Source: Planctomycetota bacterium (GTDB lineage: Bacteria; Planctomycetota; Planctomycetia; Planctomycetales; Planctomycetaceae). From it: a stretch of 64,000 nt of DNA. The DNA is taken from positions 21,505-85,504 of the forward strand of contig QWQG01000186.1 of assembly GCA_003670925.1 (NCBI GenBank). The letters are read 5' to 3'. Below, piece after piece: positions 57,224-60,971 of this stretch. The stretch's first letter is position 1. The number at the start of each line of letters is the position of its first letter. The notes under the pieces were generated by a model that was not told the DNA's origin, did not search any database, and saw nothing but the letters and a program-made list of their open reading frames with translations. The translations under genes and the position numbers were made by a program.

Positions 57224-58183
57224 TTACCCTGCGGGACATCTCGTTAACTGCTGATGATTCAGCAGGGTCTCCAGATGGATTTCCACACAATCTGCAAGGC
57301 GCTCGATGTTGTAGCCCCCTTCCAGAATACTCACCAGTCTTCCGTTGCAGTGCGTGTCTGCCACCTGGAGTACGAGTTCCGTGAGGGTGGAAAAGTCCTC
57401 AGTCTCCAGACCGAGCGATCCCACCGGATCATCCACGTGTGCGTCGAAACCGGCGCTGACGATAATCAGATCTGGTCTCATCGAATCGGCGGCGTGGGTG
57501 AGCATGTTTTCGAAGGCCGACAAATAGTCGCGTCTTGAAATTCCGAATTCGAGCGGCAGATTGAACGTGGCACCTAAACCGGAACCGCGTCCGGTTTCCG
57601 TCTTGCGGCCGGTCCCGGGATAAAAGGGAAATCGATGAGCAGAGAAAAATCCAACTTGTTCGTCTTCGTAAAATATATCCTGCGTCCCATTGCCATGATG
57701 CACGTCCCAGTCCACAACGAGCACGCGATCTAGCCCCAAGCGTTGCACAGCGGTTCGCGCGGCAATCGCGGCGTTTCCAAATAGGCAAAATCCCATCGGG
57801 GCGTCAGGCACAGCGTGATGGCCTGGTGGTCGCACCAAACACAACGCGGTGGAATCGCAACCATTGACGACTCTTGAGACAGCATCCACCGCCGCGCCGG
57901 CCGCAAGAATCGCGACCTCGGCTGACGCCGTACTCATCACCGTATCGACTTCAACGCGCCCCCCACCAGCGGCGGAGAATTCACGAATGTATTCCAGATG
58001 ACATGCCGGGTGAACGCGCAGAATATCGTCATCGGCAGCCGATACGACAGAATGTTGCGTGCAGCGACTGAGAAGATCAGACTGCGCAAGTTTTGCGTGA
58101 ATTGCCTGCAGCCGCTGCGGGGATTCCGGATGCGCACCCGTCTGATGCAGAAGAAAGCGGTCGTCGCGATAAAGCAGCGTCAT
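57224..58183 (-). CDS. Histone deacetylase-family (AcuC-like) amidohydrolase
   Basis: 'HPESPQRLQAI', 'RPPGHHAVPDAPMGFCLFGNAAIAARTAV', 'VLVVDWDVHHGNGTQDIFY', 'IIVSAGFDAHVDDP', 'SILEGGYN'. Confidence 0.95.
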   Translation of the reverse strand: MTLLYRDDRFLLHQTGAHPESPQRLQAIHAKLAQSDLLSRCTQHSVVSAADDDILRVHPACHLEYIREFSAAGGGRVEVDTVMSTASAEVAILAAGAAVDAVSRVVNGCDSTALCLVRPPGHHAVPDAPMGFCLFGNAAIAARTAVQRLGLDRVLVVDWDVHHGNGTQDIFYEDEQVGFFSAHRFPFYPGTGRKTETGRGSGLGATFNLPLEFGISRRDYLSAFENMLTHAADSMRPDLIIVSAGFDAHVDDPVGSLGLETEDFSTLTELVLQVADTHCNGRLVSILEGGYNIERLADCVEIHLETLLNHQQLTRCPAG

Positions 58184-59628
58184 TCCGCCAGTCCCTTGGC
58201 GAACGCATCCTCCGGCAGATCACGCCCTGTCAGTTCACGAAACTGAAGGTTTAACTGAATGGCAAAGACCGAAGTCGGGTCAAGGTACCTTGCGCCACGT
58301 GCATGAGCTTCTTCAGCAAAGGGAGACCCACGCAAACCAACCGTTAAATCGACCACCGTCATTCGTTCACGAATCATGGAGGGGTTGACCTGCCCTTTGG
58401 CCACGCCACACGGCAATCCGAAGTCGGCAAGAATTAATATATCCGTCCGCAGATCATGCACCGCGTTCCAGCCAACGTGCCGCACACCAACAGCGCGGGC
58501 CATGGTGGCCGCAGTATTGTCAGATGGACCAGCGAGGCTGACAGCGGCACCCTTCTGACTGAAGAAAATTGCCGCCCCACGCGCCCTAGCACTATTGCCG
58601 ATCACCGTGACCGAACCACGCGAAGCCCATTCAGTACTGCCAGTCACAACAGCCCCAGCCTTATCAACAGCTTCAAACGTCGTACAAATCCCCTTCCAGC
58701 CGCCACCCGCGACTTCCTTCAACACATCAATCCGATCTGATGCCGTTGCCAACTCGTCCCGCGATGCCGCGAGTGAAGTCAGGTCACCTTCGTACGCCGG
58801 ATCGACAATTAACCCGTTGATCTTCATTTTCTCTAACATCTTTGGGAATTTTGAAAGATCGCCAGGGAGCAGCGGCAGACAACGAATGGGTTTTTCCATG
58901 GAAGAAAATGCCGCATTAATAACTCGTGCGGCGATGTTTTCGGAATCTCCATAACCGATGATTCCGACAAAGCGAGTTTTCGAATTGATCTCTCCGCAGC
59001 GGTAATCTTCCTGCAACTGCCAGACGGTGGACTGCTTCGCAAAGGCCTCCATCCCGCGTTCTAAAGCGGCATAGATCCAAGGCGAACCGTACTTTCGCCC
59101 AAGCAACGAAAATGTCAGTCCCGATCGACCAAATCCAATCCCAACAATCGGTACTTCACGAGGTTGAGTGACTGCCGCTAGCAGTGGCCAAGCGCCGTCA
59201 AGATCTTCAGTGAGCCACGTGAACTTGACGACGTCGGCCTTCGCTTTGCAACACTGAGCGAAGATTTCATCAATTTTTGAAAGCGGACGATTGAGGTTCG
59301 TGTAGGCGATGACGCGTTTCGTCTGACCGAAGCGTGGAATTTTTTCGGCCATCTCAAGGTCCAATTCAACGTACGCCGGGCCCGCGACAATCGCTTCCCG
59401 CAGCAACTGCATCCGCTGAGTTTCGTTGCCCTTCCACTTGCCTCCATCTTGCTCGCGGCGACAGGAAACCAACATGGGTGTATCCACCATCTTGATCAAT
59501 TCGCCGACATTAGGTTCGGCGATAAAGTGATCAAGACACAATTCAATCAAGTCGCACTTACGCGAGGCATTGAGCAGATCTGCAGGTGCCAGCGTACGCG
59601 AAGTCGGTGTCACAGAAATACAAATCAT
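58180..59628 (-). CDS. AroD-AroE-like fusion (type I 3-dehydroquinate dehydratase + shikimate dehydrogenase folds), catalytic motifs appear degenerate
   Basis: N-terminal DHQ dehydratase-like 'LLNASRKCDLIELCLDHF...SCRREQDGGKWKGNETQRMQLLREAI', 'ADVVKFTWLTEDLDGAWPLL', 'KYGSPWIYAAL'; C-terminal AroE-like 'GSVTVIGNSARARGAAIFFSQKGAAVSLAG...FAIQLNLQFRELTG'. Confidence 0.82.
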   Translation of the reverse strand: MICISVTPTSRTLAPADLLNASRKCDLIELCLDHFIAEPNVGELIKMVDTPMLVSCRREQDGGKWKGNETQRMQLLREAIVAGPAYVELDLEMAEKIPRFGQTKRVIAYTNLNRPLSKIDEIFAQCCKAKADVVKFTWLTEDLDGAWPLLAAVTQPREVPIVGIGFGRSGLTFSLLGRKYGSPWIYAALERGMEAFAKQSTVWQLQEDYRCGEINSKTRFVGIIGYGDSENIAARVINAAFSSMEKPIRCLPLLPGDLSKFPKMLEKMKINGLIVDPAYEGDLTSLAASRDELATASDRIDVLKEVAGGGWKGICTTFEAVDKAGAVVTGSTEWASRGSVTVIGNSARARGAAIFFSQKGAAVSLAGPSDNTAATMARAVGVRHVGWNAVHDLRTDILILADFGLPCGVAKGQVNPSMIRERMTVVDLTVGLRGSPFAEEAHARGARYLDPTSVFAIQLNLQFRELTGRDLPEDAFAKGLAE

Positions 59629-60971
59629 ATTCTTGGCTTAAATGATGTCTGAAGGTGGAACCACTGAGAGACGTAATTGTACAACGAGTGCCATCCGACT
59701 GCGGCAAGAATGCAGATAAATGGCATCACGGGAGTCCGCATGCGGGTGTCAGTCCAGTAAAAAGCATGGAGCAGCATGAAGGACAACACGATGATCCACA
59801 AGTCTGCAAGGCTCTGATGTGCCGGAATGTGTCTCTTCGTGCGAAATTTCAGAATTCTATGCAAAGCCGGAAGCGAGCTCACAATTGTCGCTGCGACACC
59901 GATCCAGATCAGGCTATACCAAACGCCAATCAGTGTTGTGGCAAATCTCGGCAGCCCAGCGTCGGAGCCTGGCGTAATTGCACAGAATCGACGCAAACGC
60001 AGGAGACAGGATTTCAAGAAACTCAAGGGTTGTGCCTTGATCGATAACACGAACTGCTGATGGTACCACGCGTCTTGAGCGGGTTCGCTTCCCATTGGAA
60101 CACCTTGTACTGCGGCTTCAGAGATCATTCTTTGCTGCCACGCATCTAATTGCGGTCCAGGCCATGGGAACGAGAGGTTGCCATTAATCACATCGCGGTA
60201 AAAATCTGGATTATTTCCCAACGCGAGTGTGTACCCACCGTGCGTCGTGGCTGGAATGAATTTATGAAATTGGATGGCATTGCGAATGACCCACGGCGAA
60301 ATCGCAACCGCAGCAAAGATCATGGGCAGAATTGCAAATACCATATTCCGGGTACAATTCTGGCCGCCCTTCAGACTAAGTCTTAGACGTGAGAGGACTA
60401 GCAGCGCACAGGACACCAGGAGAAGCGGGCGCACGAGCGAACCCAGACCGAAGAGCGCACCTGACAGAATACAAAATACGTACCCTTGCGAGCCTAGCAG
60501 TTGGTGCCGCAACTCAGCAGCTTTCAGAGTCACAACGGCTGCGATCAGGATCGCCGCAGCTGGGACCTCCGTCATTGGCAGGATCGTGTAACGCAAAAGC
60601 AAAGGGTCGAAGACAATGATGCCAACCGCGAAGAGCCGGACACTTGGCGTCAGTTGAAGCTGCTGGCAAAGTCTCCATGAGAACCAGATAATCGCGAGAC
60701 TGCTCAAGCCGTTGATGAATGCGACACTCGCCCAACCGGGTAGCCCAAACACTAGCAGACCTGCGAGTGCAATCGGGTAGCCTGGAGGCCGAAAAGCGGT
60801 CGGACGATGCGTGTGCGGCCCGGCGAAGCCTTCGCCATGAGCAACCATATCTGCATGCGCCAGATACCCATCGTGGTCACTCGTCAGATCCGCGTAACGT
60901 GTCAACCCTCCGCCAAGGCGTACCGCGATCCCAAGCATCAGCACGATCATTAGCACGGTTGTGGTTCGCAT
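59625..60971 (-). CDS. Family 39-like / ArnT-like membrane glycosyltransferase
   Basis: 'DLTSDHDGYLAHADMVAHGEGFAGPHTHRPTAFRPPGYPIALAGLLVF' and ~10 hydrophobic helices. Stop overlaps downstream ATG (ATGA). Confidence 0.82.
   Translation of the reverse strand: MRTTTVLMIVLMLGIAVRLGGGLTRYADLTSDHDGYLAHADMVAHGEGFAGPHTHRPTAFRPPGYPIALAGLLVFGLPGWASVAFINGLSSLAIIWFSWRLCQQLQLTPSVRLFAVGIIVFDPLLLRYTILPMTEVPAAAILIAAVVTLKAAELRHQLLGSQGYVFCILSGALFGLGSLVRPLLLVSCALLVLSRLRLSLKGGQNCTRNMVFAILPMIFAAVAISPWVIRNAIQFHKFIPATTHGGYTLALGNNPDFYRDVINGNLSFPWPGPQLDAWQQRMISEAAVQGVPMGSEPAQDAWYHQQFVLSIKAQPLSFLKSCLLRLRRFCAITPGSDAGLPRFATTLIGVWYSLIWIGVAATIVSSLPALHRILKFRTKRHIPAHQSLADLWIIVLSFMLLHAFYWTDTRMRTPVMPFICILAAVGWHSLYNYVSQWFHLQTSFKPRI

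Follow-up and report, generated by a model that had tools for sequence, protein, structure and literature searches.

A divergent AroD-AroE paralogue of planctomycetes with a conserved barrel lysine and a drifting dehydrogenase half

What can a protein do that has the layout of a bifunctional shikimate-pathway enzyme, when residues expected for catalysis are missing from both of its domains? This question is raised by a gene on the minus strand (58180..59628) of the window, a 64,000-nucleotide stretch of a planctomycete contig. The gene encodes 482 amino acids followed by a TGA stop codon (58180-58182). A preliminary description, made from the sequence alone, read the product as a fusion of type I 3-dehydroquinate (DHQ) dehydratase (AroD) and shikimate dehydrogenase (SDH, AroE) with apparent loss of catalytic residues in both domains.

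The two-domain layout is real, as indicated by a sequence match to the Arabidopsis DHD-SDH (2gpt) across the whole 482-residue length (3.8e-52 with the orthologue profile) and by a model from AlphaFold2 with 37 orthologues as input (mean pLDDT 92.1), whose best fold match in the PDB is the Arabidopsis DHD-SDH 2o7s (TM 0.86, 21% identity). The DHquinase_I family (PF01487) matched the protein at 1e-32, above the gathering score, and this type I profile matched 37/37 orthologues. An AroE domain, including Shikimate_dh_N, was absent from the Pfam matches of the protein. Nevertheless, the AroE fold was recovered by Foldseek against the A. aeolicus SDH (TMt 0.82-0.85) and by a profile match to 2hk9 (1.8e-22). 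The paralogue fell below the cut-offs of the NCBIfam models for bifunctional AroDE (NF006802, 35.6 vs 598 bits) and aroD (TIGR01093, 62.7 vs 139.3 bits), as did the canonical planctomycete copy (173.3 and 132.8 bits, respectively), which passes aroE TIGR00507. A search of a viral fold library with the paralogue returned nothing at E <= 0.001.

The same assembly, which is 99.5% complete, encodes a second and intact AroDE fusion (G000:C85) with the motifs SYHNF, VIKI, MGELGTISR, SVTIPHK and NTD, sharing 28-29% identity with the paralogue. Separate canonical enzymes had been named as a point to check, and this copy settles it: the shikimate steps are covered by the canonical protein. A type II AroQ was considered as a backup and discarded, since the gene is absent from the genome and the canonical AroDE does both steps.

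To follow individual residues, we aligned 57 divergent orthologues, comprising a set of 37 (the window's included) and a further 20 that came largely from other families in the class, and compared them with 22 canonical planctomycete AroDE proteins. Residue roles were taken from PMC9902378 for the dehydratase and from PMC7752791 for the dehydrogenase. A second pairing, obtained by aligning the orthologue profile to 2gpt with HMMER, matched the residues identically, so the result does not depend on a single aligner. All four segments quoted in the preliminary description occur in the protein and fall at the sites it had assigned to them.

The AroD-like TIM-barrel half (aa 1-215; 58984..59628, minus strand) is strongly constrained and has a pocket that appears to be rebuilt. 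Its segment RVIAYTNLNRPL pairs without gaps with the canonical RIISYHNFEETP, placing Thr110 (59299..59301, minus strand) at the position of the catalytic His143. Threonine occupies this site in 52/57 orthologues and histidine in one, compared with histidine in 22/22 canonical proteins. Likewise, GFGRSGLTFSLLG pairs with the canonical CMGELGTISRILC, and the equivalent of Arg213, which contacts the substrate carboxylate, is Ser174 (59107..59109, minus strand). This residue is Ser, Thr, Ala, Asn or Gly in all 57 orthologues and never Arg, which is found in 22/22 canonical copies. Both the missing histidine and the altered M-G-x-x-G-x-x-S-R motif noted in the preliminary description are thus borne out. 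The Schiff-base lysine, equivalent to Lys170, is present: Lys135, within ADVVKFTW (59224..59226, minus strand), is Lys in 56/57 orthologues and in 22/22 canonical proteins. The claim of catalytic loss in both domains therefore holds for the His/Arg pair and for the SDH dyad treated below, but not for this lysine. Also kept are Glu29, the equivalent of Glu46, which contacts the substrate hydroxyls (59542..59544, minus strand; 57/57), Arg57, the equivalent of Arg82 (59458..59460, minus strand; Arg in 54/57 and Lys in 3/57), and the equivalent of Gln236 (53/57). At the Arg48 position, the paralogue has Cys31. Cysteine is found here in 36 members of the 37-sequence set, whereas the 20 more distant orthologues retain Arg. 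Neither the lysine nor the replacement of the histidine is absolutely fixed, since the Schiff-base Lys is replaced by Arg in one orthologue (L112) and the catalytic position is again occupied by His in another (L032).

The AroE-like half (aa 216-482; 58183..58983, minus strand) has lost its catalytic and NADP motifs and is drifting. The segment LIVDPAYEGD pairs with the canonical YSVTIPHKEG, so that the equivalent of the catalytic Lys385 is Glu280 (58789..58791, minus strand), and WKGICTTFEAV pairs with WVATNTDAPAA, so that the equivalent of the catalytic Asp423 is Thr317 (58678..58680, minus strand). The lysine and the aspartate, each found in 22/22 canonical proteins, occur at these positions in 0/57 orthologues, confirming that the SDH residues expected in NVTxPxK and G-x-N-T-D are gone, and both positions vary freely among the orthologues. 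In the SDH of M. tuberculosis, loss of this lysine by itself lowers kcat 68-fold (PMC2789096). The cofactor site has changed as well. The paralogue has GNSARARG in place of the NADP-binding motif GxGGxxxA, with an inconsistent Rossmann glycine motif across orthologues, and Pro368 at the Arg of the NRT-type motif that specifies NADP preference (NR[ST]), which is not maintained across orthologues either. The Rossmann segment, which had been described as remaining, does so in the sense that the AroE fold is kept, but the segment drifts and its NADP motifs are lost.

All or almost all of the 57 orthologues show the same losses, which is more than chance. With the His/Arg pair and the SDH Lys/Asp lost, and an intact AroDE encoded elsewhere in the genome, neither textbook activity is expected. 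In plant quinate dehydrogenases (QDHs), the changes His214Phe and Arg279Gln (Arabidopsis numbering) are held to explain the lost DHQ-dehydratase activity (PMC7752791), and the DHQase domain of Candida albicans Aro1 is inactive through loss of His and Lys (PMC9074039). By analogy with these proteins, loss of DHQ dehydratase activity in the paralogue is a well-supported prediction, and SDH activity is probably lost because the Lys/Asp dyad and the cofactor motifs are gone. The retained fold and Schiff-base lysine would fit an isozyme that has specialised yet remains active as a DHQ dehydratase or SDH by means of compensating residues. We consider this very improbable, since the two altered AroD positions are those lost in the inactive QDH domains and since no orthologue retains the SDH dyad or the NADP motifs.

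The paralogue is a widespread companion of the canonical gene. In a sample of the phylum, 28/28 genomes of the window's family held one divergent and one canonical copy, one of them with an extra divergent copy, while the other 12 members of the class had a single, canonical-like match only. In a class sample of 398 genomes, the divergent type (E <= 1e-60) was found in 120/124 genomes of the family and in 28 genomes of three other families (f101, f102 and f104). Among the four exceptions in the family, one has the gene split across contigs and three lack it (G509, G517 and G655). In one complete genome of the family (G587), the divergent gene lies in three adjacent pieces (G587:C1:3296587-3298027), pointing to either recent pseudogene formation or errors in the sequence. 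Such losses and breakage indicate that the gene is dispensable in places.

The divergent sequences form a single clade (support 100/100), separate from the canonical clade and joined to it by a long branch (1.22). The best reading is that the paralogue is an ancient duplicate of the AroDE fusion, with the root and the exact age of the duplication left unsure because long branches meet. Additional, more divergent copies of divergent or intermediate type were seen in single genomes (L043; G393:C1:6471089-6472513 and 931171-932286), and in L043 the lysine is kept while its surroundings are altered. Metagenome-assembled contigs labelled Candidatus Kuenenia stuttgartiensis (L035, L038) carry orthologues 77-90% identical to the window's gene, next to the same upstream neighbour, so these contigs or their labels look misassigned. 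The two-copy genomes of family f36, from another class, were considered as relatives and rejected, as their second copy has the AroD His and Arg intact and belongs to a different clade. That gene (L083-L086) encodes about 370-400 aa, with the catalytic His, Lys and Arg of AroD intact, a truncated N-terminal part of AroE with an altered NTD motif, and no Rossmann domain.

The two halves of the paralogue have had opposite fates, the AroD half being strongly constrained and the AroE half drifting. Over 20 genomes holding both copies, mean identity of the AroD half was 62.5% among divergent and 63.8% among canonical proteins, whereas that of the AroE half was 37.8% among divergent vs 56.0% among canonical ones. 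Between close pairs, dN/dS was 0.011-0.034 for the AroD half and 0.022-0.091 for the AroE half, and higher for the AroE half in every pair. This amounts to purifying selection on both halves, showing that the gene is not decaying. A duplicate on its way to becoming a pseudogene could account for the drift of the AroE half and for the few genomes in which the gene is broken or lost. However, these dN/dS values, the full-length frames in nearly all genomes and the class-wide retention already contradict decay for the family as a whole, and we give it hardly any credence.

The changes within the AroD half are also concentrated. Seventeen of its positions are fixed differently between the two clades, compared with one in the AroE half. 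In TIM barrels, the active site lies at the mouth of the barrel. We counted as mouth the last residues of each barrel strand or the loop after it, with strand ends taken from the predicted model and not from measured distances, and by this count 14/17 of the clade-specific sites fall at the mouth, which makes up 64/215 positions (p=4e-6). A mild enrichment at the mouth is also seen for the invariant sites of each clade (p 0.009-0.03). Ser10, Arg11, Asn20, Trp147, Pro148, Glu190, Gly192 and Glu194 are near-invariant in the 57 orthologues, and most are uncharacteristic of canonical proteins. If the AroD half were a scaffold only, the lysine should drift as the SDH lysine does and the newly fixed residues should not cluster at the mouth. 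This pattern in the sequences favours an AroD half that has been rebuilt into a new lysine-dependent pocket.

The same data bear on whether the paralogue might assist the canonical AroDE in a regulatory or structural role, with its well-conserved AroD half mediating the assembly of mixed oligomers. The canonical copy accompanies the paralogue in all 28 family genomes of the phylum sample, the constraint on the AroD half is on a par with the canonical one, and the type I DHQase domains of Candida Aro1 dimerise (PMC9074039). Still, the clade-specific residues gather at the mouth of the barrel and are not scattered over surfaces, the branch between the clades is long, and the conservation of the lysine would be left without an explanation. 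A partner role is thus quite improbable.

The gene neighbourhood did not point to a pathway. Upstream lies a gene for a 448-aa membrane protein (59625..60971, minus strand) that resembles a family-39-type glycosyltransferase but has no Pfam hit, and downstream a gene of the histone-deacetylase family (57224..58183, minus strand; PF00850, 2.6e-90). Each overlaps the paralogue by 4 bp. Across 27 orthologous loci, the membrane-protein neighbour was kept in close relatives only and the deacetylase-family neighbour only in the closest ones, and no conserved neighbourhood pointing to a pathway was found. An assignment from these neighbours was therefore dropped. The genome also carries a second DHQ-synthase-like gene of the PRK06203 type (G000:C80:16653-17942; L114, L115), and an ORF near it reads, by eye only, as an MfnB-type TIM barrel. 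A parallel pathway, fed by this second synthase-like gene, which might make a carboxylate-free cyclitol, was considered, and its pairing with the paralogue was not found in the 398-genome class sample. The PRK06203-type gene is patchy there, occurring in two families that lack the paralogue (f2 and f5) and missing from many genomes that have it, which argues against an obligate pairing.

Collectively, we propose, with a probability of roughly one half (0.5), that the paralogue is an ancient AroDE duplicate that performs neither shikimate step, in which the AroD barrel has become a lysine-dependent site and the AroE half a remnant. The barrel may bind a keto-polyol ligand, most likely through a covalent imine with Lys135. 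This ligand would lack the carboxylate of DHQ or orient it differently, and the barrel would use a different acid-base group to act on it. The AroE half would serve as a structural or lid remnant only. The preliminary description had offered a pseudoenzyme or an enzyme with a new reaction or ligand. The opposite fates of the two halves favour the latter and disfavour a plain pseudoenzyme. More specifically, and only tentatively, the gene might represent a class-wide planctomycete enzyme family whose barrel carries out another lysine-imine reaction, with a new substrate and acid-base group, and whose fused AroE domain is a dead lid or scaffold.

Retention of the binding shell and the lysine, together with loss of the catalytic His and both SDH residues, would also suit a non-catalytic sensor. 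Its barrel would bind a metabolite of the shikimate pathway or a related one and signal through protein contacts, in the manner proposed for the fungal regulators QutR, GaaX and TanX. The bound metabolite could possibly persist as an imine that stalls for want of the hydrolysing His. These AROM-derived and presumably inactive repressors may still bind their inducer (PMC10512348). The paralogue, however, has no shikimate-kinase domain, DNA-binding domain or adjacent transcription activator, and its neighbours are not conserved, so a sensor seems unlikely. We retain the lysine-dependent site as the preferred reading.

We found no published description of this paralogue family in the open literature. 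Pfam annotation would label the gene a 3-dehydroquinate dehydratase, and metabolic models would thus assign planctomycetes two of them. The paralogue is conserved and uncharacterised, and of the two domains of its bifunctional ancestor one appears to have been rebuilt and the other let go. It offers a natural experiment in how shikimate enzymes may give rise to new enzymes or sensors, with the canonical copy of the same genome as a built-in control. Planctopirus limnophila is a planctomycete open to mutagenesis (PMC10632474), and the main text of that essential-gene study does not name the shikimate genes.

Among known systems, the bifunctional DHD-SDH proteins (Arabidopsis 2gpt/2o7s and the planctomycete AroDE at G000:C85) share with the paralogue the domain order, length and fold, the Schiff-base Lys and the equivalents of Glu46 and Arg82. 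Unlike them, it lacks the catalytic His, Arg213, the SDH Lys/Asp and the NADP motifs. The plant QDHs of the DQD/SDH family (Eucalyptus EcQDHa/b, PMC7752791) are altered in the dehydratase at the same two positions, but their dehydrogenase half works, whereas that of the paralogue drifts. QutR, GaaX and TanX (PMC10512348) are likewise paralogues of shikimate enzymes in which catalysis is thought lost and ligand binding kept. Their homology extends over three AROM domains, one of them shikimate kinase, and their genes adjoin an activator gene, whereas the 482 aa of the paralogue hold no kinase-like domain and its neighbours are the membrane-protein and deacetylase-family genes. The Candida albicans Aro1 DHQase domain (PMC9074039) has the type I fold with the catalytic His replaced (by Gln), but it has no usable Lys, which the paralogue keeps, and the other Aro1 domains are active. 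The parts are therefore of a known kind, that of a shikimate-enzyme paralogue. It is the combination that sets the paralogue apart from the plant QDHs, Candida Aro1 and the fungal repressors: the Schiff-base Lys is kept, the His and Arg are replaced, and the partner domain is let go, class-wide and beside an intact copy.
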